Assembly (NCBI GenBank): GCA_022710975.1
Contig: JAKLGA010000011.1
Location: 241,842-282,424 of the forward strand
Length of the DNA stretch: 40,583 nt
Direction: 5' to 3'
Source: Myxococcota bacterium
GTDB lineage: Bacteria > Myxococcota > B64-G9
The notes beneath the pieces are model-generated. The model did no database searches. It saw only the letters and a program-made list of their open reading frames with translations, and was not told the DNA's origin. Position numbers and translations under genes: made by a program. Below, piece by piece: positions 515-11,615 of the stretch (the stretch's first letter is position 1; each line of letters opens with the position of its first letter).

Positions 515-1315
515 TCAGGGCCGGGTGCGCTCGGCCTTCACCAGCCGGCCGCCCTGGTAGTCGTAGGTGCCGACGGGGGTGCCGTCCGGGGCGAAGTCCT
601 GCCAGCGGCCCTCGCGCTGGCCGAGCCGGTACTCGCCCGTGCGCTCCACCTGACCGTTCGGGTGCCAGGCGGTCCAGCGGCCCTGCTCCAGGCCGTCCAG
701 GTACTCGCCCTCGGTCCAGCGCGGGGCGGGCTCGCCGTCGGGCCCGTGCCAGCACACCCAACGCCCGCTCTTCCGCCCGGCGCGGTACTCCCCGGCGCAG
801 CGCCGCCGCTCCTCGGTCCAGGTCGTCCAAGCCCCGACCCGCTCGCCGTCCTCGAGACGGCCCTCGGCCACCACCCGGCCCTGGGCGTCGAGGTGGCGCC
901 AGGGGCCGGTCTTCTGGCCCTGCCGGTACTCGCCCTCGGCGGCCAGCGCGCCGCGCTCGTGCTCCCGCCAGCGGCCGTGCCGCTGGCCCGCGACGTAGGT
1001 GCCCTCCTCCTGGAGCTCGCCCCGCTCGGAGAAACGGCGCCAGGCGCCGTCCTCGAGCCCCTCGCGGTAGGCGCCCCGCGAGCGCGGCTGGCCGTTGCGC
1101 CAGTCGGTCTGGTGGGGCCCGTGCCAGCGCCCGGCCGCGTCCTGGCAGCCCTGCGCGCGGCCGAACCAGACGAGCTCCTCGACCGCGCCGGTGGCCGGCG
1201 GGCAGCCCAGGCGCGCGGCCAGGGCCCGCTGCGCGGCCTCGTCCGCGCAGCCCGCGCCGAGCGCGAGCGCGATCCCCAGGGCGAGCGGGCCGGGCCGGAA
1301 GCTTGCCGTGCGCAT
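515..1315 (-). CDS. MORN-repeat (YwqK-like) lipoprotein
   Basis: A 266-residue protein with an N-terminal lipoprotein signal: basic start, hydrophobic stretch and lipobox ending LGAGC, so Cys23 is the likely lipidated residue. The rest is a run of about seven 20-25 residue repeats of the form G-x-W-x(n)-G-x(n)-G-x-Y-x(2)-G, for example QRHGRWREHERG and QGQKTGPWRHLDAQG. These match the MORN variant found in YwqK-type proteins, although that family is often annotated as a toxin-antitoxin component with little support. Its role is not known. The beta-hairpin repeats suggest a surface or periplasmic binding scaffold. It diverges from the lytic transglycosylase gene across only 46 bases. A weak promoter (TTGAAG, 16 bases, TAAGCT) can be read in that gap. 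Confidence 0.8.
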   Translation of the reverse strand: MRTASFRPGPLALGIALALGAGCADEAAQRALAARLGCPPATGAVEELVWFGRAQGCQDAAGRWHGPHQTDWRNGQPRSRGAYREGLEDGAWRRFSERGELQEEGTYVAGQRHGRWREHERGALAAEGEYRQGQKTGPWRHLDAQGRVVAEGRLEDGERVGAWTTWTEERRRCAGEYRAGRKSGRWVCWHGPDGEPAPRWTEGEYLDGLEQGRWTAWHPNGQVERTGEYRLGQREGRWQDFAPDGTPVGTYDYQGGRLVKAERTRP

Positions 1316-1361
1316 GGGCGGAGCTTACCCTCTTCGGGGTCCGCTTCAAGGGGTCTCGCGC

Positions 1362-3878
1362 ATGTGGCTCCTGGTGTGCTTGCTCGCGCAGGGCGCCGCC
1401 CTGGCCCAGGCCGGGCCGGTCTGGCCTCCCCTGCTCGACGACCCCGGGGCCCGGGCGGCCGCGCGGCTGCTCGACCTGGGCGCGGTCGGCAAGGCGGCCG
1501 AGGCGGCCGAGCGCCGGCTGCGGGGCGAGGCGCTCGCCGAGGACGAGGCGGCCGCGCTGGGCTTCGTGCGCGCGCTGGCCCGCACGCGCGCCGGGCTCCC
1601 GGCCGATCCGGGCGACTTCATGCGCGCCTTCCACGCGCCCGGCCTGCGGGGGCTGGACGGGCACGCGGCCTGGTACCTGGGCAGGCTGCTGTGGGAGCGC
1701 GGCGCCCGGCTGAGCGAGGCCAAGGCCTACGACCTGGCCGGGCCGTACCTGGAGCACGTGCCCTTCCCCGGCCGCTTCGGGCTGGAGGCCCGCCGGCTGC
1801 GGGTGCGCGGGCTGGTGGCCACGGGCGCGCTGCCCCAGGCGCTGGCGCTGGCCGAGGACACGGCCGCGCGGCTTGAGCGCCGGGCGGGTGAGCCCGCGGC
1901 GCTGCTGCTGCTGGCCTGGGTCAGCGAGCGCGCGGGCCACGCGGCCGCCCAGGCGAAGGAGCGCGAGGAGTCCCTGCGGCTGCTCGGTCAGGCGGCCGCC
2001 CTCTACCGGCAGGTGCGGGCGGTGTGGCCCGAGCATCCGGCCGCGCTCCAGGCGGCCGCGGGCGAGGACCGCCTGCGCGCCGCCAGGGTGCGGCCCGGGT
2101 CCGGGCTCGCCCCGCGGGCGCTGTCGCTGATGCGCGCGGTGGTCTCGCGCCCGTTCGGGCCGGCCGACTTCGGCCTGGTCTCGCGCCTGCGCGGGCTCCT
2201 GCCCGCGGACCCGCGCGACGGGGCCGCGGCCGAGGCGGATCTGCTGTGGGCCGAGGTGGCCATCCGCCTGCGGCGCTTCGAGGCGGCCAGCGCGCGGCTG
2301 GTCCGGGTGCGCGAGCGGGCGCCCGGCCCGGAGGCGCAGGCCCGGGCCGCGCTGGTGCTGGCCCGGCTCCAGGCCCGGCGCGACTCGGCCGGCGGCCAGC
2401 GCGCCTACCTGGCGGTGGCCGACCGCTGGCCGGAGACCCGCTCGGCCGGCTCGGGGCTCTACCGGGCCGCGGAGATCGCCCGCCGGCTGGGGCGCCCCGA
2501 GGAGGCCCAGGAGCTCTTCGAGCGCTGCGCGCTGGAGCACTCCCTGGATCCCGCCGCGGGGGGCTGCCAGTGGGGGCTGGCCTGGTTCGAGCTCGAGGCC
2601 GGCGACCTGGCCTGCGCCCTCGAGCGCCTCGACGCGCTGGCGGGCGTGGAGGACCCGGCGGATGGGGTCGGACCCGGGGAGCTGGAGATCGATCTCGATC
2701 CCGAGGACTTCGAGGACCCGGCCGCGGACACCGCCGACCCCGAGCTGCCGCTGGTGCCGCTGTCCCCGGAGGGCGAGGACCCGGCCGCGGAGGAGGCCGG
2801 GCAGGACGAGTCCGACGAGCTCACCGCGTTCGATCTGGGCGCGGCCGCCTTGCGCTCCCGGGCGCGCTACTGGGCCGCGCGCGCGCGGGAGCGGCTGGGC
2901 CAGGCCGGGGCGGCCCCGGACGCCCTGGCGGCCCGGGCGGCCTACCGCGCCCTGGCCGAGGAGGAGCCCTTCGGCTACTACGGGTTGCTGGCCTGGGAGC
3001 GCCTGCTGGCGGGGGGCGCCGCGCCCGGCGACGCCCCGGCGCTCGGCCACCCGCGCTGGCCCGCCGAGGAGGGTCCGCCCGATCCGCTCCGGCCGCGCTG
3101 GCCCGCGCCGGACATGGCCGGGCTGGGCGGGGAGGCGGCAGCGGCCGTGGCCTACGAGCGCATGGGCCTGCGGCGCGAGGCCCTCGCCAGCCTGGCCGGG
3201 CTCCGGCCCGGGGACACGTCGCCGGCGGACGCGCGCGCGGCCGCGCTCATCCTGGACGCGGCGGGCGAGCTCCGGCGCTCGCACCGGCTGGCGCCGCTGC
3301 CGCGCGACGGGGGCCTGCCGGGCTACCCGGAGGCCGAGCTCGGGCTGGACGCCCGGCTGGCCTACCCGCGCGCCTACGGCGGGCTGGTCGAGCTGGCGGC
3401 CCGCGAGGCGCGCGTGCCGGCCGCGCTGATCTTCGCGGTCATGCGCCAGGAGACCGGTTTCTGGGCCGAGGGGCGCTCGCCGGCCGGGGCGCGCGGGCTG
3501 CTGCAGGTCTTGCCGGCCACGGGCGCCTGGATGGCCCAGCGCGCGCGGCTGCGCGGCTACGCCGGCTGGAAGCTGTACGAGCCGGAGACCTCGCTGCGGG
3601 TCGGCGCGGCCTTCCTGGCCTTCCTGCTGGAGCGCTACCAGGGCAACGTGCCGCTCGCCCTGGGGGCCTACAACGCCGGCCAGGGGGCCATGGACCGGTG
3701 GATCGCGAAGCGGCCCGGGCTCGAGCTGGACGCGCTGCTGGAGGAGATCCCGGTGGCCGAGACCGCGCGCTACATCCGGCGGGCGCTGTGCTTCTACGCG
3801 GCCTACCGCCTGCTCGACGATCCGGGCGCGGAGCGCCCCCTGGCCCTCGACTTCTCCCCGCCCGCCGTGCCCGACTGA
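1362..3878 (+). CDS. Soluble lytic murein transglycosylase (Slt70-like)
   Basis: An 838-residue secreted enzyme that should cleave the MurNAc-GlcNAc bond of peptidoglycan to give 1,6-anhydro products. The start at 1362 begins a clear signal peptide (WLLVCLLAQGAALA). Residues 30 to about 640 are alpha-helical and Ala/Leu/Arg-rich with TPR-like units, like the helical ring of Slt70. The SLT catalytic domain lies at about 675-825: AVMRQETGF with catalytic Glu697, GARGLLQVLPATG, and LALGAYNAG, in family order. The frame is open upstream of 1362, but those residues overlap the divergent lipoprotein gene and have no signal peptide, so I reject the longer start. Odd feature: an acidic, Pro-rich, probably disordered insert at about 434-490 in the helical region. 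It converges with the membrane-protein gene at 3895, leaving 16 bases. Confidence 0.9.
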   Translation: MWLLVCLLAQGAALAQAGPVWPPLLDDPGARAAARLLDLGAVGKAAEAAERRLRGEALAEDEAAALGFVRALARTRAGLPADPGDFMRAFHAPGLRGLDGHAAWYLGRLLWERGARLSEAKAYDLAGPYLEHVPFPGRFGLEARRLRVRGLVATGALPQALALAEDTAARLERRAGEPAALLLLAWVSERAGHAAAQAKEREESLRLLGQAAALYRQVRAVWPEHPAALQAAAGEDRLRAARVRPGSGLAPRALSLMRAVVSRPFGPADFGLVSRLRGLLPADPRDGAAAEADLLWAEVAIRLRRFEAASARLVRVRERAPGPEAQARAALVLARLQARRDSAGGQRAYLAVADRWPETRSAGSGLYRAAEIARRLGRPEEAQELFERCALEHSLDPAAGGCQWGLAWFELEAGDLACALERLDALAGVEDPADGVGPGELEIDLDPEDFEDPAADTADPELPLVPLSPEGEDPAAEEAGQDESDELTAFDLGAAALRSRARYWAARARERLGQAGAAPDALAARAAYRALAEEEPFGYYGLLAWERLLAGGAAPGDAPALGHPRWPAEEGPPDPLRPRWPAPDMAGLGGEAAAAVAYERMGLRREALASLAGLRPGDTSPADARAAALILDAAGELRRSHRLAPLPRDGGLPGYPEAELGLDARLAYPRAYGGLVELAAREARVPAALIFAVMRQETGFWAEGRSPAGARGLLQVLPATGAWMAQRARLRGYAGWKLYEPETSLRVGAAFLAFLLERYQGNVPLALGAYNAGQGAMDRWIAKRPGLELDALLEEIPVAETARYIRRALCFYAAYRLLDDPGAERPLALDFSPPAVPD

Positions 3879-3894: not shown

Positions 3895-4569
3895 TCAGGG
3901 ATTGCAGCCGGCAAGCGCCCGGGCGACGTGGTCGCTCGCGCAGCCGAGGCTCGCGGGGCCCGCCCCGCGGCTCTGGCAGGTGGTGCGGCCCGAGGGGCAG
4001 CGCGGCGAGCTGGCCGGGTCCCAGCGCTCGCGGCCGCACTGGCAGGGCGTGTCGTCGAGCAGGATGGCCGGGCAGGCGCCTCGGGCGCGGAGCTCGCGGC
4101 GCTGCCGCTCGAGCTCGATGCAGGCGTAAGCCGGGTCGATGACCGGGAACAGCGGGCCGAGCCCCTCGTCGAGCAACCGCTCCCGGCTGGCCCGGGTGGA
4201 CTCGCAGCCCGCCCGCGCGCAGATCTCCGCGGAGACGTCGAGCCGGAGCGCATAGTAGGTAAACAGCCCGCCCCCGAGGATGGCGGCGAGGAGCGCGAGC
4301 ACGCCCGTGGCCTGCAGCGCGCGCCGCAGGCGGAGCTCCCTGGGCCACGCACCCAGCCAGCGCCAGACGCCGGCGGCGAGCAGCCCGGCCCCGAGCAGCA
4401 TGAGGCCGCCGAGCGTCCTCGGGCTCACGCCCAGGCGGTGGATCCCGCCCCAGAGGTCGACCGCGGCGAACAGGCAGCCGAGCGCGAGCACGACCGCGGC
4501 GCCCCCGGCGAAGAGCCAGAGGCCCGAGCGACGCCGCGCGCGAGCTCCGTCATCGGGTCTGGATTCCAC
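3895..4569 (-). CDS. Membrane protein with three TM helices and a Cys-rich C-terminal domain
   Basis: A 224-residue protein of no family I recognise. A basic N-terminus is followed by three hydrophobic helices at about 16-42, 52-74 and 84-108, with a basic loop (RELRLRR) between helices 2 and 3. By the positive-inside rule the remaining ~115 residues face the periplasm. That domain has ten cysteines, including CQCG and paired-looking positions, as expected for a disulfide-bonded fold. It is the last gene of a leftward run that starts with the ECF-like sigma factor at 7569; the gene before it ends 43 bases upstream. The Cys-rich exported character is shared with the lipoprotein at 5524-6348. 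Confidence 0.75.
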   Translation of the reverse strand: MESRPDDGARARRRSGLWLFAGGAAVVLALGCLFAAVDLWGGIHRLGVSPRTLGGLMLLGAGLLAAGVWRWLGAWPRELRLRRALQATGVLALLAAILGGGLFTYYALRLDVSAEICARAGCESTRASRERLLDEGLGPLFPVIDPAYACIELERQRRELRARGACPAILLDDTPCQCGRERWDPASSPRCPSGRTTCQSRGAGPASLGCASDHVARALAGCNP

Positions 4570-4612
4570 GGGGAGAGGCTAGCACGGGTGGGGCATTACT
4601 GCGAGGCCGGCG

Positions 4613-5494
4613 CTACTCTCCCCACACCCGGAGGCGGTCGAAGTCGCAGGTCATGCGCGCCTCCATGTGCATGCCGATGTTCGCGCCGAAGAGCTCGCGG
4701 GCCTTGATGGTGTCCAGGGTCTGGCCGTTGGCCTGCAGGACCCACCTGCGGCCCTGCCTGGCCAGGGCGATGGTGATCCACTGGACCCCGCCGGCCTGGA
4801 TGGCCGTGTGCGCCTGCCAGCCGGTCAGGTCCCGCCACTGGCCGCCCTCGAAGTAGGACAGGCGGTACTGGCCGCCGTCGGTGACCTCGAAGGAGTAGCC
4901 GTTGTTCGCGTCGCTGGACCCGAACCACAGCCCGCAGCCGTAGTTGTCGAGGTTCTGGTGGATGCGCAGGGTGAGCTCGAAGCGGTAGTCCCCGCGCGCG
5001 CGCACGGGCTTCGTCATCCAGGTCGCGTAGCCCCCGGCCACGTGGTGGCGCAGCCACAGGCGACCGTCCTGGACGCCGGACTCGGCCTGATCGGTCGCCC
5101 CGACCCACCAGGCGTTGCGGTTGTCGTCGAAGGTCTCGTCGAGCAGCAGCTCGCCGCCGCTCGCGCCCCCGTCCCGCGCGTCCTCGAGCGCCTCGAGGGC
5201 GTCGCGGATGGCGGCCTGGACCTTCCTGGGGCAGTCGTCCCCGGCCGCCTCGCGGGCCTCCCGGAGCGCGCGCCGCGCCTTCTCCGGCCTGGCGCTCCTC
5301 TTCTCCAGCCTGTCCGCCGCGTCCTCGAGGTCCTCGAGCACGGCCTGGCGGCAGGCCTTGCCGGCCTGCTTGGCCTCGTCGATGGCCTCCTCCACCGCGC
5401 GCAGGGCCCGCTTGCCCGGCCCGCCCCCGGCCAGGGCGGGGCAGGCGAGCAGCAGCAGCGCGCAGATGGACACTCCGAATCGCCCAGGGTTCAT
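4613..5494 (-). CDS. Secreted protein with helical N-terminal region and LamG/concanavalin-like C-terminal domain
   Basis: A 293-residue protein. The ATG at 5494 is preceded by GAGGAGG at good spacing and opens a signal peptide (MNPGRFGVSICALLLLACPALA), so longer readings upstream are rejected. Residues 25-105 are highly charged and probably alpha-helical, with two cysteines. Residues about 115-293 look like the beta-sandwich of LamG or DUF1080-type (3-keto-disaccharide hydrolase) domains: DETFDDNRNAWWVG at the start, then YRFELTLRIHQNLDN, GLWFG, GYSFEVTDGGQYRL, and the terminal CDFDRLRVW strand. Such domains usually bind sugars or act as adhesion modules; no catalytic residues can be named. 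It lies 29 bases after the Cys-rich lipoprotein gene and is probably cotranscribed with it. Confidence 0.75.
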   Translation of the reverse strand: MNPGRFGVSICALLLLACPALAGGGPGKRALRAVEEAIDEAKQAGKACRQAVLEDLEDAADRLEKRSARPEKARRALREAREAAGDDCPRKVQAAIRDALEALEDARDGGASGGELLLDETFDDNRNAWWVGATDQAESGVQDGRLWLRHHVAGGYATWMTKPVRARGDYRFELTLRIHQNLDNYGCGLWFGSSDANNGYSFEVTDGGQYRLSYFEGGQWRDLTGWQAHTAIQAGGVQWITIALARQGRRWVLQANGQTLDTIKARELFGANIGMHMEARMTCDFDRLRVWGE

Positions 5495-5523
5495 GGCGGC
5501 CTCCTCGCCGGTCTGGCCGGGCC

Positions 5524-5805
5524 TCAGGAGCAGGTCCCGCTGGTGCAGGCGCCCGAGTCGCAGTCCGAGTCGTACTCGCAGCGATCGCCGAAACCGCGGC
5601 CGTGGCAGGTGCCGTCCACGCAGTTCTGGGTGTCGCAGTCCGAGTCGTAGTCGCAGGGCGAGCCCTCGCCGTTGCCCTGGCACTGGCCGTCGGTGCAGTT
5701 CTGCGAGTCACAGTCCGAGTCGTACTCGCAGGGGCAGCCGTTGTCGTTCTCCCAGCAGGAGCCGTTCGCGCAGTTCTGGGTCTGGCAGTCCGAGTCGTAG
5801 TCGCA
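5524..5805 (-). repeat. Four 75-bp in-frame tandem repeats in the Cys-rich lipoprotein gene
   Basis: Units start at 5805, 5730, 5655 and 5580 on the reverse strand, exactly 75 bases apart. Each begins with a TGC codon followed by the sequence for (D/E)YDSDC. The last unit is cut short by the stop codon. The DSDC core is nearly invariant, while the linker residues differ. Confidence 0.85.
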
Positions 5806-6348
5806 GGCGCTGCCCTGCAGGCAGGTCCCGGAGATCGCGCACTCGCCGTCCTTGGCGGGGTTGCGGGTGCAGGCCGAGGGGTCGTGCGTGGCGCTCTCGG
5901 CCTGGGCGAAGCACCCGTCCATGCAGTCGAAGTCCATGGGCTGGCAGGCGGCCATGCAGCCTTCGAGGTCGAAGCCGACGCACAGCTCGAAGGCGCTCTC
6001 GGTCGCGCAGTCGTAGTAGATGTCGTTCAGGCAGCACCACCCGTAGGCGGCCACCTGCCCGGGTTTGCAGTCGCCGGCCTCGCACACCTCGCCGGCGGCG
6101 CAGTCGGAGTCGTGCGCGCACTCGGCGCTCTCGGGCACGCAGGCGCCGTTGAGGCACTGCATGAGCGCGCCGCAGTCGGCCGCCGTCTGGCAGGCGGCCG
6201 GGGGATCCACGCACACCCCCAGATCGCAGATGCGCGCCCCCTTGCAGTCGGTGTCCTGTGCGCAGGCGCCGCGCTCCTCCGAGCCAGCCGTGCAGCCGAG
6301 GGCCATGAGGCCGAGCGTCATCCCGAGGGTCACCAGTCCTTTGAACAT
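5524..6348 (-). CDS. Cys-rich lipoprotein with four tandem 25-residue repeats
   Basis: A 274-residue lipoprotein with signal peptide and lipobox (MALGC, Cys19). Its first half has Cys-rich segments of the C-x(3-5)-DC-x(5)-C type (ACAQDTDCKGARICD, ECAHDSDCAAGEVCE), as in many myxobacterial secreted proteins. The C-terminal ~94 residues are four 25-residue units with core C-x-YDSDC-x(4)-C-x(2)-G-x-C. I chose the ATG at 6348 because GGAGG at 6356-6360 lies seven bases from it; the alternative GTG at 6354 almost touches that site. The upstream zinc-finger gene ends at 6351, so translation is probably coupled. It is likely a surface or periplasmic disulfide-rich protein; the repeats could bind metal or ligand. 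Function unknown. Confidence 0.8.
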   Translation of the reverse strand: MFKGLVTLGMTLGLMALGCTAGSEERGACAQDTDCKGARICDLGVCVDPPAACQTAADCGALMQCLNGACVPESAECAHDSDCAAGEVCEAGDCKPGQVAAYGWCCLNDIYYDCATESAFELCVGFDLEGCMAACQPMDFDCMDGCFAQAESATHDPSACTRNPAKDGECAISGTCLQGSACDYDSDCQTQNCANGSCWENDNGCPCEYDSDCDSQNCTDGQCQGNGEGSPCDYDSDCDTQNCVDGTCHGRGFGDRCEYDSDCDSGACTSGTCS

Positions 6349-6350
6349 GT

Positions 6351-6629
6351 TCACTCCTCCTTGTTCTCGAGGTCGTTCCGTGCGGACCTCTGGTTGGGGT
6401 CAGGTGCAAGAGGGGGGCTGCCGGAAAATGTCGCAGCCGGGCGCGAAGATTTCTGGCCGCGCTCGATCCGCCGGAGTTTCAACAGGAAGGCGATCAGCTC
6501 CCGGCAGCGCGGGCAGCGATCCAGGTGCTGCTCCAGGTCGGGCGTGGCCTCACCCCGCGCGCGGGCCTGCAGGCGATTCTCGTCCGGGCAGGGGGCGCGG
6601 ACGGCACGGGGGGTGGGGCGCAGCGGCAT
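6351..6629 (-). CDS. Small zinc-finger (anti-sigma-like, zf-HC2 type) protein
   Basis: A 92-residue soluble protein with no membrane segment. It carries a C-x(20)-H-x(3)-C-x(2)-C motif (Cys14, His35, Cys39, Cys42; EQHLDRCPRCREL), the arrangement of zinc-binding anti-sigma domains. The C-terminal 35 residues are polar and probably disordered. The gene lies 55 bases after the ECF-like sigma factor gene and its stop overlaps the ribosome-site region of the lipoprotein gene at 6348. The same motif, including the CPDEN lead-in, starts the divergent kinase at 7641. Family knowledge says such proteins hold an ECF sigma factor inactive; that role here is inferred. The assigned ATG has only a weak ribosome site. 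Confidence 0.75.
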   Translation of the reverse strand: MPLRPTPRAVRAPCPDENRLQARARGEATPDLEQHLDRCPRCRELIAFLLKLRRIERGQKSSRPAATFSGSPPLAPDPNQRSARNDLENKEE

Positions 6630-6684
6630 GCCAGCCCCAGGAGGGGCGGCCGGGCGGAAAGTCGCACCCGCGCCGGACCCCGGC

Positions 6685-7569
6685 TCAGGGGGCGGGCGGG
6701 TCGTCCGCCTGGCGGTGGAGCAGTGCCACCACCGAGACGTAGAGCTGGCTCTGCAGCAGCCGGATCACGCTGTCGAACTCGCCCTCGCTGAGGGTCAGGC
6801 GCCGGCGCAGGGCCTCGCGGGTGAGCTGGAACAGCCTGTGTTCGATGCGCTGCACCCAGCGTGCGCAGGTGGCGCGGTGCACGTGGTACAGGGCGCCGAG
6901 GTCGTCGATGCTCATGTCGTGCACCAGGCGGAAGCGCAGGATGTTCCGCTCCTTGGCCTCGAGCGCGGCCAGGGCCTCGCCGAACGCCGCGCGGAACTCC
7001 TCGAGGTAGTGCTGCTTGAGGTACCCCAGCTCGGGATCGGCGGGGGCGTCGAGGCGCTCGAGCAGCTCCTCCTCCGAGGCCACCTCCCGGCCGGCCCGCC
7101 CGGTCAGGGCCCGGGCCTCGCGGATGGCCACGATGCACAGCCAGCCCAGCAGGTCCCCGCGCCCGGCGTAGTTGGCGAGCTTCAACCGGCCGTCCGGACC
7201 GGGCAGCAGCAGCTTCTCGTACAGGCGCTGGCTGACGTCCTGCGGCGCGACGGTGCTGCTCCCGAGCCTGCGGACCGCCGCCTCGACCCGGGGGAACACG
7301 CGCTGCTCGAGCGCGGACAGCGCGGCGGGATCGTGGCGCAGGCACCCGCAGGCCAGGTACAGATCGGACAGCCTCAGGCTGGCGAGCTCCTCGTCCGGGC
7401 AGTCGGGGCTGGCCAGGCGCTCGGCCACGAAGTCGGCGAAGTGCTCCTCGGGCAGCCGGAGCTCCGGCCAGGCGCGCCGGGCCTCGCTCCACCTCTCCGC
7501 CCACACCCTCGAACCGCCGAACGCCACGTGCCCTCCCGCGGCCAGCACGGACTGGGGCGACCCTAGCAC
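6685..7569 (-). CDS. ECF-like RNA polymerase sigma-70 family factor (myxobacterial type)
   Basis: A 294-residue sigma factor. Region 2 lies at about residues 60-155, with APQDVSQRLYEKLLL and YAGRGDLLGWLCIVAIREA, the usual core-binding/promoter-melting helices. Region 4 lies at about 198-250 (ALEAKERNILRFRLVHDMSIDDLGALYHVHRATCARWVQRIE), a typical helix-turn-helix. It has extra N- and C-terminal segments compared with a minimal ECF factor, and resembles the Myxococcales-restricted sigma family known as Sig-70_gmx1. It heads a run of envelope genes and diverges from a Ser/Thr kinase gene 71 bases away. Start uncertain: GTG at 7569 is the longest. A GTG at 7527 follows GGGAGGG, and a weak TTGAGG/TAGGGT promoter would put transcription start just upstream of it, giving 280 residues. 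Confidence 0.85.
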   Translation of the reverse strand: MLGSPQSVLAAGGHVAFGGSRVWAERWSEARRAWPELRLPEEHFADFVAERLASPDCPDEELASLRLSDLYLACGCLRHDPAALSALEQRVFPRVEAAVRRLGSSTVAPQDVSQRLYEKLLLPGPDGRLKLANYAGRGDLLGWLCIVAIREARALTGRAGREVASEEELLERLDAPADPELGYLKQHYLEEFRAAFGEALAALEAKERNILRFRLVHDMSIDDLGALYHVHRATCARWVQRIEHRLFQLTREALRRRLTLSEGEFDSVIRLLQSQLYVSVVALLHRQADDPPAP

Positions 7570-7640
7570 GGCCGGATCCCCGCCTCAACCCGGCCGGCGG
7601 ACCGGTTGCGGCCGCCCGGCGGGCGTGCTCAGCTCGGCCC

Positions 7641-10430
7641 ATGAAGACCGACTGCCCTGACGAGAACACGATCCTGGCCTTCGCCCAGGGGAAGGGGCCG
7701 CCCACCCAGCACCAGGCCCTCGAGGCCCACCTGGACCAGTGCGCGGCCTGCCGGAAGGTGGTGGCCGATCTGGTGGCCGGCGGGCTGCTCGGCCGGCCCG
7801 CCCCGTCGCTCCAGCCCGGCACGCTGCCCGACCCGGCCCGCGCGTCGTCCGCCCAGCCGCCCGCGCTCGGCCGCGGGACGGTGGTCGGCCGGTACGTGCT
7901 GCTCGACCGCCTGGGGCAGGGCGGCATGGGCGTGGTCTGGTCGGCCTACGACCCGGAGCTCGACCGCCGCGTCGCCATCAAGCTGGTGCGCCGCGACTCC
8001 GCGCCGGGAGATCAGGAGCGCCCGGGCCGCCTGCAGCGGGAAGGCCAGGCCCTGGCCAGGCTCTCCCACCCCAACGTGGTGCCGGTGTTCGACGTGGGCG
8101 CGCACGAGGGCCAGCTCTTCGTGGCCATGGAGCAGGTGGACGGCTGGACGCTGGAGCGCTGGCTGCAGGCGGAGCCGCGGACCGTCGGGCAGATCCTGGA
8201 GGTGTTCGAGGCCGCCGGCCAGGGGCTGGCCGCGGCCCACCGCGCCGGCCTGATCCACCGGGACTTCAAGCCGGCCAACGTGATGGTGGGCAGGGACGGG
8301 CGGGTGCGGGTGACCGACTTCGGGCTGGCGCGGCTGGCCGAGGGGCCGGAGCCGGCCGGCCAGGCCCCCCGCCCGCCCGCGGAGGGCGCGCTCACCCAGA
8401 CCGGCGCCCAGCTCGGCACGCCCGCGTTCATGGCCCCCGAGCAGATCCGGGGAGAGCCCGTCTCCGCGGCCACGGATCAGTTCGCCTTCTGCGTGGCCCT
8501 CTACCAGGCCCTGTTCGGCGCGCACCCCTTCCTGTGGGAGCCGGGCCAGGGCACCCAGGCGCTGTGGCAGGCGGTGGTGGAGGGCCGGCTGCGCGAGGTG
8601 CCGCGCCGGCGCTCGCTGCCCGGGCGGGCGCGGGTGGCGCTGCAGCGGGGGCTGTCGCCCGACCCGGGCGCGCGCAACCCGGGCATGGAGGCCCTGCTCG
8701 CGGCGGTGCGCCCGGCCCCCCGGCTGCGGCGCCTCGTGCTGGCGGCCAGCCTCGCGGCGGCCGGCCTCGCGGCGGCGGCGGGGCTCGGGCTGCGGGCCTG
8801 GGTCACCTCGCAGGAGCGCGCGGCGGCCGAGCTGTGCGAGCGAGCCGCGGGCAAGATCGAGCAGAGCCTCGGCCCCGAGCGCCGCAGCGCGCTGGCCGCC
8901 CTGCTGGCCAAGGCCTCTCCGGGCGCGGAGCGCCGGGCGGCTGCGGCGCTGGAGGGCCTGGAGCGCTGGGCCGGGCGCTGGGAGGACGGCTACCGCGACG
9001 CCTGCCTGGCGAGCTCCGTGCGCCACGAGCAGTCGCCGGAGGTGATGCTGCTGCGGACCCAGTGCCTCGACACCCGGCTGCGCGAGTTCGACCAGGTGGT
9101 GCTGGCCTTCCTCGAGGGCGATCCGGCCCTGCTCGGCCAGGCCCCCCAGGTCGTCGCCCGCCTGACCGGGCTCGACTCCTGCGGCGACACGGTGGCGCTG
9201 CGCGCCCCGCTGCAGCCGGCCGCGGAGCTCGCCCCGGCCGTCGCCCGGGCCCGCGAGCGCCTGGCCGACGTCCTGGCGATGTACAAGACCGCGCGGGTGG
9301 ACCAGGCCCTGCCGCTCGCCCGCGAGACGCTGGAGCAGGCCAGGGGCCTCGGCTTCCGCCCGCTCCAGGCCGAGGCGGGCCAGGCCCTGGCGAAGCTCCT
9401 GTTCGCCAAGGCCGACTACGCGGCCCAGGAGGCCACCCTGCGCCGGGCCCTGGCCGACGCCCTGGCCGGTCGGCACGACGCCCTGGCGGTGGAGATCCTG
9501 GCGGACCTCGGCTACCTGCTCGGCCCGGCGCGCAACGAGTACCAGCAGGCGCAGGACGTGTTCGAGCTGGCCCAGGCGCTGCTCGATCGGCTGGGGGGCG
9601 TGGGATACTTACAGATGTTCGTCGACAACAACCAGGCGGCCAGCTTCATGGCCCAGGGCAAGCACGCCGAGGCCGAGGCCGTGCTGACCCGCCTGCGCGC
9701 GGCCAAGCTGCGGGCGGAGCAGGGGCAGGCGGTCCACTCGCTGCACCTCGGCCGCATCGACACCAACCTGGGGGCGGCCCTGGTCGGCCAGCGCAAGTTC
9801 GAGGCCGCGCTGCCGCTCTACCAGGAGGCCCGGACCGTCATGGAGCAGAACCTGGGCCCGGACCACCCCGATCTGGCGGTGGTGCAGAACAACCTGATCG
9901 AGCCCCTGTTCGAGCTCGGGCGCAAGGACGAGGCCCGCCGGGTGGCCGAGGAGGTGCTGGCTGCGCGCATCCGAGCGCTGGGCGCGGATCACCCGCAGAC
10001 CAACACCACCCGCTTCAACCTGGCCTCGCTGCTGATCGACGCCGGGCAGTACCCCCAGGCCCGGGCGGTGCTGGAGGAGTCGCTGGTCCACTACCGGACG
10101 CGCTTCGGGCCGGACCACGTCGCCGCGGCGGACGCGCTGTCGGCCCTGGGCAGCGTCCTGCTGGCGCAGGGCGAGCCGGCCGGGGCCCTGGAGGTGCTGG
10201 AGCGCTCGCTCGCGCTCCGCACCCGGGCCGGGGAGGAGCCCCTGCTCGGGGCGAACACCCGCTTCAGCCTGGCCAAGGCGCTGGCCGCCCTGGGGCGGGA
10301 CCGGCCGCGGGTCCGCGCCCTGGCCGAGCAGGCGCGCGAGCTGTACCTGGCCGCGGGCGCGGGCTACCAGGACCAGGCCGGGGAGATCTCCACCTGGCTG
10401 TCCGGCCTCCGGGCGCGGGGCCCCCGGTGA
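7641..10430 (+). CDS. Zinc-finger / Ser-Thr protein kinase / TM / TPR sensor protein
   Basis: A 929-residue fusion. Residues 1-40 hold a zf-HC2-like finger (Cys5, His30, Cys34, Cys37). Residues about 84-345 are a Hanks-type kinase: glycine loop LGQGGMGVVW, Lys114 (VAIK), catalytic HRDFKPAN with Asp208, DFG Asp226, and the GTPAFMAPEQ segment. All catalytic residues are present. A single TM helix follows at about 361-385, then an extracytoplasmic domain, with TPR repeats from about 550 to the end (for example ALPLYQEARTVMEQNLGPDHPDLA, kinesin-light-chain type). The layout suggests an outside-sensing TPR region controlling an inside kinase. It diverges from the sigma factor and zinc-finger genes. 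Substrate is unknown; the sigma factor or small zinc-finger protein are natural candidates. Confidence 0.9.
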   Translation: MKTDCPDENTILAFAQGKGPPTQHQALEAHLDQCAACRKVVADLVAGGLLGRPAPSLQPGTLPDPARASSAQPPALGRGTVVGRYVLLDRLGQGGMGVVWSAYDPELDRRVAIKLVRRDSAPGDQERPGRLQREGQALARLSHPNVVPVFDVGAHEGQLFVAMEQVDGWTLERWLQAEPRTVGQILEVFEAAGQGLAAAHRAGLIHRDFKPANVMVGRDGRVRVTDFGLARLAEGPEPAGQAPRPPAEGALTQTGAQLGTPAFMAPEQIRGEPVSAATDQFAFCVALYQALFGAHPFLWEPGQGTQALWQAVVEGRLREVPRRRSLPGRARVALQRGLSPDPGARNPGMEALLAAVRPAPRLRRLVLAASLAAAGLAAAAGLGLRAWVTSQERAAAELCERAAGKIEQSLGPERRSALAALLAKASPGAERRAAAALEGLERWAGRWEDGYRDACLASSVRHEQSPEVMLLRTQCLDTRLREFDQVVLAFLEGDPALLGQAPQVVARLTGLDSCGDTVALRAPLQPAAELAPAVARARERLADVLAMYKTARVDQALPLARETLEQARGLGFRPLQAEAGQALAKLLFAKADYAAQEATLRRALADALAGRHDALAVEILADLGYLLGPARNEYQQAQDVFELAQALLDRLGGVGYLQMFVDNNQAASFMAQGKHAEAEAVLTRLRAAKLRAEQGQAVHSLHLGRIDTNLGAALVGQRKFEAALPLYQEARTVMEQNLGPDHPDLAVVQNNLIEPLFELGRKDEARRVAEEVLAARIRALGADHPQTNTTRFNLASLLIDAGQYPQARAVLEESLVHYRTRFGPDHVAAADALSALGSVLLAQGEPAGALEVLERSLALRTRAGEEPLLGANTRFSLAKALAALGRDRPRVRALAEQARELYLAAGAGYQDQAGEISTWLSGLRARGPR

Positions 10431-10502: not shown

Positions 10503-11615
10503 ATGCCGCTGTCGGGCACCTTCGACACCCTGTCGCTCGCGGACCTGCTCCAGGTGGTGCAGCAGAACCAGATCTCGGGCCTGCTGACGGTCACCTGCGG
10601 CCTGGAGGACACGCATCTGGTGCTCGCCCGCGGGGACGTGCTGGCGCTGGGCGCGGACGATCCGGCCCGGCTGGATCTCGGCCAGGAGCTGCTCGCGGCC
10701 CGGCTGGTCAGCCCGGGCGCGCTGCAGGTGCTGGTGCGCGAGCTGCCCGAGGGGGAGGGGCTGCGCGAGGCGCTCGGCCGCCAGGGCGGGGTGGACGCGG
10801 AGGCCCTGGCGGAGCTCGAGGCCCGGCACGCGAGCGAGCTCATCCTGGGGCTGCTCTTCCGGGAGGACGGCTCCTTCCACCTGTCCACACGCGCGCTGCC
10901 CGAGCCGCGCGAGGCGGGCGTGCCGAACCTGGTGGTGCTGGCCCGGCCGCTGCGCACCCAGGGGCTCCTGTTCGACGCCATGCAGCGGGTGGACGAGTGG
11001 AACCAGGTGCGCCAGGTGCTCCCCACCGGTCACGTGCGGGTGAGCGCCCCGCCCGAGGCCCTGTCCTGCGAGCTGCCGGCGGTGCGCCGGCTGGCCGAGC
11101 TGGGTGAGGCGCTCAACGTGGTGGAGCTGTGCCTGCGCATGGGCGGCAACCGTTTCGAGCTGCGGCGGCAGCTGGTCGAGGGGCACGCGCGCGGACTGGT
11201 GCGCGTGGAGCCGGCGGCCGAGGGCGGCGCGGAGCTCGAGGCCGCGGCCCGCCTGCTCGAGCAGGCGCGGGCGCTGCTCGAGCAGGGCCGTCACGACGAG
11301 GCCCAGGCCGTGCTGGCGGTGGCGCTCGGCCTCGATCCGGACAGCGAGCGCGCGCGCGAGCTGCTGACGCGCACCCGCGCGGACCAGCTCGCGCACCTGC
11401 GGCGCAAGCTCGAGTCCCACCGGGTGCCGGTGCTGGCCGTGCCGCCCGAGTCCCTGGCCGGGCTGCGCCTCGGCCGCCGCGAGCTGTACCTGGCCTCGCG
11501 CCTGAGCGGCCGGACGGACGTGGCCAGCCTGCTGGTGTCCATCGCGCTCGGGGAGCTGGAGACCCTGCGCAGCCTGGAGCGGCTGGTGGACGCCGGCCTG
11601 GTGCGGCTCGGGTAG
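10503..11615 (+). CDS. DUF4388 (PatA-like) domain protein
   Basis: A 370-residue cytoplasmic protein. The N-terminus (SGTFDTLSLADLLQVVQQNQISGLLTV) is the hallmark of DUF4388/PatA-type N-terminal domains, common in myxobacterial signalling proteins but of unclear biochemical role. A second segment continues to about residue 165. Residues 245-300 form two helices resembling one TPR unit (LLEQGRHDEAQAVLAVALGLDPDSERAREL). The last 45 residues look like a small winged-helix-like module. It starts 72 bases after the kinase gene, and rlmM begins eight bases after its stop, so it probably shares a transcript with the rRNA methyltransferase genes. There is no evidence linking it functionally to rRNA modification. 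Confidence 0.8.
   Translation: MPLSGTFDTLSLADLLQVVQQNQISGLLTVTCGLEDTHLVLARGDVLALGADDPARLDLGQELLAARLVSPGALQVLVRELPEGEGLREALGRQGGVDAEALAELEARHASELILGLLFREDGSFHLSTRALPEPREAGVPNLVVLARPLRTQGLLFDAMQRVDEWNQVRQVLPTGHVRVSAPPEALSCELPAVRRLAELGEALNVVELCLRMGGNRFELRRQLVEGHARGLVRVEPAAEGGAELEAAARLLEQARALLEQGRHDEAQAVLAVALGLDPDSERARELLTRTRADQLAHLRRKLESHRVPVLAVPPESLAGLRLGRRELYLASRLSGRTDVASLLVSIALGELETLRSLERLVDAGLVRLG

Follow-up and report, generated by a model that had tools for sequence, protein, structure and literature searches.

We analyzed a 40,583-nt stretch of contig JAKLGA010000011.1 from a Myxococcota bacterium (GTDB lineage B64-G9), hereafter the window, and focused on a locus at positions 3,895 to 10,430, where the gene of an extracytoplasmic function (ECF)-like sigma factor lies divergently beside the gene of a membrane Ser/Thr kinase. 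Behind the sigma factor gene, and in the same direction, follow an open reading frame (ORF) for a free-standing zinc finger and genes for Cys-rich and secreted proteins. The first-pass annotation of this DNA had proposed that the kinase senses an envelope state and acts on the sigma factor, which then switches on the Cys-rich proteins. The genes that it described are real and mostly well placed, but two starts had to be corrected, and the finger of the kinase, which is of the anti-sigma type, had been understated. The features, in window positions, are as follows.

6685..7569, minus strand: ECF-like sigma factor gmx1 (TIGR03001), 294 residues, GTG start; regions 2 and 4 with N- and C-terminal extensions
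7641..10430, plus strand: membrane Ser/Thr kinase, 929 residues, with anti-sigma-type finger, kinase domain, one transmembrane (TM) helix and TPR ectodomain (Pfam)
7653..7751, plus strand: finger of the kinase (C5, H30, C34, C37), resembling zinc-type anti-sigma (ZAS) proteins (profile and fold)
6703..6786, minus strand: C-terminal helix of the sigma factor past region 4, with Ser267, Ser274 and Ser279 (conservation and model)
7570..7640, no strand: divergent intergenic region between the sigma factor and kinase start codons, 71 bp, common to both genes
6351..6629, minus strand: 92-residue ORF, free-standing finger (42.9 bits against the finger profile, A1)
5524..6348, minus strand: Cys-rich repeat lipoprotein with three DUF7107 stretches (Pfam), same direction as the sigma factor
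4613..5494, minus strand: secreted protein with LamG-like C-terminal domain (translation and signal peptide; named by appearance only)
3895..4569, minus strand: membrane protein with about three TM helices, its Cys-rich tail holding 10 Cys (translation)

Codon composition was coding-like in all genes of the locus except in the second half of the 92-residue ORF. The start of the LamG-like gene was corrected to the ATG at 5494, and that of the lipoprotein gene is most plausibly the ATG at 6348, behind a GGAGGAG motif. The 71-bp intergenic region presumably holds the putative promoter site(s).

The gmx1 sigma factors and their neighboring kinases

The sigma factor of the window belongs to NCBIfam family TIGR03001 (Sig-70_gmx1; hereafter gmx1), with a score of 223.6 bits against a curated cut-off of 154.6 (E = 2.3e-66) over nearly the full model (positions 1–243 of 244). 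A Pfam scan detected region 4 alone. In a structure model built on 50 relatives, residues 66–163 matched region 2 of E. coli sigmaE (Z 8.6–8.7), and residues 181–256 matched region 4 of the sigma factor bound to RslA (Z 8.5). Sigma factors above the TIGR03001 cut-off were found in 108 of the 195 genomes searched in the phylum, with up to 20 copies per genome. Pfam Sigma70_r2 detected 2 of 50 gmx1 sigma factors, and none of the nine in the window's own genome (G000) and genome G136; the family is nearly invisible to this profile, and censuses built on region 2 would therefore miss it. The TIGR03001 model makes no mention of a kinase or an anti-sigma partner, and we found no paper naming TIGR03001 or Sig-70_gmx1 among the openly licensed papers searched.

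We examined 81 gmx1 loci, including that of the window, from more than 30 genera. A kinase domain was encoded within 3 kb of the sigma factor gene in 74 of them, and two of the seven loci without a kinase (L102 and L108) sit at contig ends. The 74 kinase genes take four orientations relative to the sigma factor gene: 24 are downstream and co-directional, 23 divergent, as in the window, 16 upstream and co-directional, and 11 convergent. Adjacency was thus kept while orientation changed, which favors a functional link over simple operon inheritance and bears out the earlier claim that the kinase and the sigma factor belong together. In addition, distances among sigma factors were correlated with those among kinases, both across all pairs (Mantel r = 0.58, null maximum 0.18) and among paralogues within genomes (r = 0.79, with none of 5000 shuffles as high); because linked genes co-inherit, this indicates stable pairing but does not prove contact.

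Beyond region 4, the sigma factor model contains a further helix (residues 262–289). Ser or Thr occupies positions 267, 274 and 279 in 90%, 81% and 90% of the 81 family members, respectively, and Glu or Asp stands in place of Ser267 in 5 of the 81. We infer that Ser267, Ser274 and Ser279 are candidate phosphosites. One gmx1 sigma factor (L052) lacks the C-terminal serine signature and also has no partner kinase; as a single case, this joint absence is only suggestive.

The N-terminal finger of the kinase

The kinase of the window matched Pfam Pkinase (E = 2.9e-37) and TPR_12 and contains a hydrophobic helix at about residues 364–382. The VAIK, HRD and DFG motifs of Hanks-type Ser/Thr kinases are intact in this protein and in 68 of the 74 partner kinases. 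Its first 40 residues contain C5, H30, C34 and C37, in agreement with the ZAS/zf-HC2 motif [C/H]-x(about 25)-H-x3-C-x2-C. A comparison of 52 partner kinases showed no variation at H30, C34 or C37 and at least 90% conservation of C5, with His in the replacements seen. When the finger segment was searched alone, it scored 23.9 bits against Pfam zf-HC2, above the cut-off of 22.2, whereas the whole kinase scored 20.3 bits and fell below it; 46 of the 52 family members matched zf-HC2 at E ≤ 0.01.

A finger profile, built solely from kinase N-termini, matched six sequences in all of the PDB, every one an anti-sigma factor or a CHAT-domain form of one (RslA, 7e-7; DdvA, 4e-5; its CHAT-protein entry, 3e-4; two ChrR entries, 7e-4; RsiW, 1e-3). 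All four fold entries listed for the finger model are likewise anti-sigma factors and come from ChrR (the best, Z 7.2 over 69 residues, root-mean-square deviation 5.9), RsiW (Z 5.8) and RslA (Z 5.5); the Z values are middling for this small domain, and the sequence profile agrees with them. Of the weaker matches to the profile, 13 of 17 in genome G136 and 15 of 17 in the window's own genome adjoin ordinary ECF sigma factor genes (28 of 34 together; about 1% expected by chance), so a profile made from kinases also finds ordinary anti-sigma positions. Judged from profile, modeled fold and genome positions, the N-terminal finger of the kinase is a zinc-type anti-sigma domain, and hence a membrane-bound anti-sigma module is predicted at this locus. 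The first-pass annotation had stated that a membrane anti-sigma factor is absent and had counted this in favor of control by the kinase; given the kinase's own anti-sigma-type finger, the statement is not supported.

The finger profile was matched by 69 of the 74 partner kinases. Among the other five, two are cut by contig ends (L094 and L058), one is frame-broken with its finger in the neighboring frame (L060), and two have degenerate fingers (L047 and L096). At L047, kinases flank the sigma factor gene on both sides, and the second kinase matches the profile (E 3e-7) without having the zinc ligands. The distance correlation with the sigma factor was r = 0.59 for the finger and r = 0.57 for the kinase domain. 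The partial correlation between finger and sigma factor, given the kinase domain, was 0.46 (null maximum 0.12), but we do not count it as evidence of contact: the reverse value was about equal, and both could stem from noise in the kinase distances.

Within single genomes, the finger also marked the partners of gmx1 sigma factors. In G136, which has 109 Pkinase matches, the seven strong finger matches were seven kinases, one beside each of the seven gmx1 sigma factors, and two of these pairs had not been used in building the profile. Among the best-scoring and truncated-type kinases of the window's own genome, three have the finger, and two of these adjoin gmx1 sigma factor genes. No kinase gene on the list for this genome is within 3 kb of any of its listed non-gmx1 sigma factor genes.

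The soluble finger and the Cys-rich genes

The 92-residue finger ORF lies 55 nt behind the sigma factor gene, is co-directional with it, and has intact finger ligands. We found no counterpart at the other 80 gmx1 loci, save for a frame-broken piece in L060, and none in the genomes of the window's family. The nearest relatives of this finger are the N-terminal fingers of kinases, and the GC content at third codon positions drops from 0.92 to 0.72 in the second half of the ORF, where the coding signal is weak. Because genome G001 has kinases on either side of the sigma factor gene, the 92-residue ORF may be what remains of a second finger kinase, or else a decoy. The gene order described in the first-pass annotation is conserved beyond close relatives in part only: the sigma factor–kinase pair persists through the phylum, but the soluble finger occurs at 1 of 81 loci. 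This lack of conservation led us to reject it as the general anti-sigma factor of the family; we do not count it among the common components, and our proposed mechanism does not depend on it.

At four of the six loci of the window's family, the gene directly behind that of the sigma factor, and co-directional with it, encodes a Cys-rich secreted protein: that of the window (past the small finger ORF), the second locus of the same genome (L046), and those of G002 and G005. Across the phylum, Cys-rich stretches occur within 1.5 kb of the sigma factor gene at 17 of the 81 loci, compared with 6.7 expected from farther sequence (Poisson p about 6e-4), a modest enrichment. The proposal that Cys-rich proteins are the output thus holds as a linkage in the window's family; as judged from gene context, the Cys-rich theme is real, but the gmx1 family at large does not share it as an output. 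The lipoprotein of the window is a probable output gene of its sigma factor. Its Cys content is 14%, and its score against TIGR04201 (Myxo_Cys_RPT) is just under the cut-off. Behind the second sigma factor gene, at about 9680–13270 of L046, are genes for a Cys-rich secreted protein resembling an NlpC/P60-type enzyme and a Cys-rich GH25-like protein, and both proteins end in apparent MYXO-CTERM anchors (by eye).

As for the other genes, the LamG-like protein had no Pfam match. The membrane protein at the end of the operon, whose ten Cys lie past the last hydrophobic helix, had no family match in Pfam or NCBIfam. A lytic transglycosylase-like gene (window 1095–3878, plus strand) is convergent with the Cys-rich operon and lies 16 bp from its end. 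On the other side, a gene for a DUF4388 protein (window 10503–11615, plus strand) starts 72 nt past the kinase gene on the same strand, and its co-transcription with the kinase gene is possible.

A predicted one-piece switch and its alternatives

On balance, we favor the reading that the sigma factor works with its divergent kinase as a single signaling pair, in which the kinase doubles as a membrane anti-sigma factor and frees or activates the sigma factor upon a signal. The cytoplasmic N-terminal ZAS finger of the kinase would bind the sigma factor and keep it at the membrane, while its kinase domain would be connected, through the single TM helix, with a periplasmic TPR domain sensing the envelope state. 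A signal would activate the kinase, which would phosphorylate either its own finger or linker or the conserved serines in the sigma factor tail and so free or activate the sigma factor; this would then transcribe the operon to which it belongs, with the genes of the Cys-rich secreted proteins. Sensor, inhibitor and kinase thus appear to reside in one protein. Domain homology, conserved adjacency, correlated evolution and intact kinase motifs form the observed basis of this proposal, from which we infer binding, inhibition, the direction of the switch, the phosphosite, the signal and the regulon.

Known ZAS proteins are inhibitors, and we therefore favor inhibition over mere docking. Under docking, the finger would do no more than recruit the sigma factor for the kinase; an otherwise idle sigma factor would be activated by phosphorylation, with no anti-sigma inhibition. 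We regard this as unlikely, though worth serious consideration: it fits the near-equal correlations of finger and kinase domain with the sigma factor, the intact active-site motifs of the partner kinases and the conserved serines of the sigma factor tail, but every solved relative of the finger is an inhibitor, and its other genomic relatives occupy anti-sigma positions. A different activation by the kinase is known from ECF43 sigma factors, which lack the DAED motif and are switched on by a phosphothreonine in region 2.2 (PMC8999054). The first-pass annotation had drawn on one of them, EcfP/PknT of Vibrio parahaemolyticus; in this pair, as in EcfK/PknS of Xanthomonas citri, the genes of an ECF-type sigma factor and of a Ser/Thr kinase are neighbors (PMC8999054, PMC13147305), and PknS is transmembrane, as is the kinase of the window. 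ECF groups controlled by phosphorylation are recognized by a kinase gene next to that of the sigma factor (PMC8999054), and such a neighbor is present in the window and at 74 of 81 loci. Furthermore, the sigma factor of the window has APQD in place of DAED, with Ser104, Ser105 and Thr106 just upstream, so that phosphorylation of region 2.2 might supply the missing negative charge for binding to RNA polymerase. ECF43 members have an uncharged replacement of DAED that includes Ser or Thr, whereas most gmx1 sigma factors keep acidic residues there (xDEVxQ) with no conserved Ser or Thr, and even APQD, which is ambiguous, keeps one acid. Moreover, kinase-linked groups have been described as having no anti-sigma factor (PMC8999054), unlike the finger-bearing gmx1 kinases. 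The alignment disfavors charge restoration of the ECF43 type, and we consider it improbable; because most gmx1 sigma factors keep these acids, the EcfP/PknT analogy is good for linkage and fits the family poorly as a mechanism.

If the 92-residue finger were the real anti-sigma factor at this locus, regulated by the kinase, its direction, its position close behind the sigma factor gene, its intact ligands and its profile score would be explained. However, other loci have no counterpart, the second half of the ORF has weak codon bias, and its closest relatives are kinase fingers, suggesting a duplicate or remnant; this explanation seems very improbable to us. The sigma factor and the kinase could also be neighbors by descent that do not act together, since neighboring genes co-inherit. 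Such a relation would not account for adjacency in four orientations, for the one-to-one match of finger kinases with gmx1 sigma factors in a genome as rich in kinases as G136, or for the separation of listed non-gmx1 sigma factors from listed kinases in the window's own genome, and we give it hardly any credence.

Several observations nevertheless weigh against a kinase that is at once envelope sensor and anti-sigma factor. Co-inheritance of neighboring genes by itself yields correlated trees. The third finger kinase of the window's own genome (G000:C2:135744, L158) is an orphan with no sigma factor neighbor. The kinase of L096 and the nearer kinase of L047 have no zinc ligands, and metal binding is therefore not essential everywhere. 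Seven partner kinases (L067, L068, L070, L071, L081, L121 and L123), a minority, have no clear TM helix near position 280, shortly past the kinase domain, and about 1030 C-terminal residues; envelope sensing therefore cannot hold for all, and this subclass is probably made up of cytosolic sensors. Finally, the binding partner of such fingers might not be a sigma factor. At L158, the gene of a Cys-rich lipoprotein is found about 2 kb upstream of the orphan kinase's finger.

The proposed arrangement can be compared with known anti-sigma factors. RslA, RsiW and ChrR share the spacing and fold of the kinase finger (by profile and model), as does RsrA; ZAS anti-sigma factors of this sort are membrane-bound or soluble. 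Such genes adjoin ordinary ECF sigma factor genes in the two genomes searched with the finger profile, both of which contain gmx1 pairs. What sets the window protein apart from these four is that its finger shares one chain with a Hanks-type kinase, a TM helix and a TPR domain. A further known protein is DdvA (PDB 8rlz; the CHAT-domain protein 8rot has the same N-terminal sequence by alignments), in which a zinc-type anti-sigma domain heads a large multi-domain protein. DdvA has a CHAT domain where the window protein has a kinase, and the comparison covers the anti-sigma domain. Among the openly licensed papers searched, which are an incomplete sample, we found no report of a kinase with a fused anti-sigma finger, nor of such a fusion paired with a whole sigma factor family. 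Kinase-controlled ECF sigma factors and ZAS anti-sigma factors are known already; their fusion in one membrane protein appears, from sequence, to be a new variant.

The kinase-linked ECF sigma factors other than ECF43 are a recognized open problem; according to a 2022 review, they retain DAED-like acids, and their mechanism may differ from that of EcfP (PMC8999054). For one large kinase-linked ECF family, a kinase with its own anti-sigma domain would offer an explanation that is concrete and can be tested. We give even chances to the broader view that gmx1 loci throughout the phylum belong to a class of one-piece switches: one membrane protein would serve as sensor, kinase and anti-sigma factor for the adjacent sigma factor, and kinase activation would loosen the anti-sigma grip or mark the sigma factor tail without proteolysis or partner switching. 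In the two genomes in which kinase-domain matches were counted, there were about 70 and 109. Few of these kinases have known targets, and the pairing described here ties a defined subset of them to defined transcription factors.

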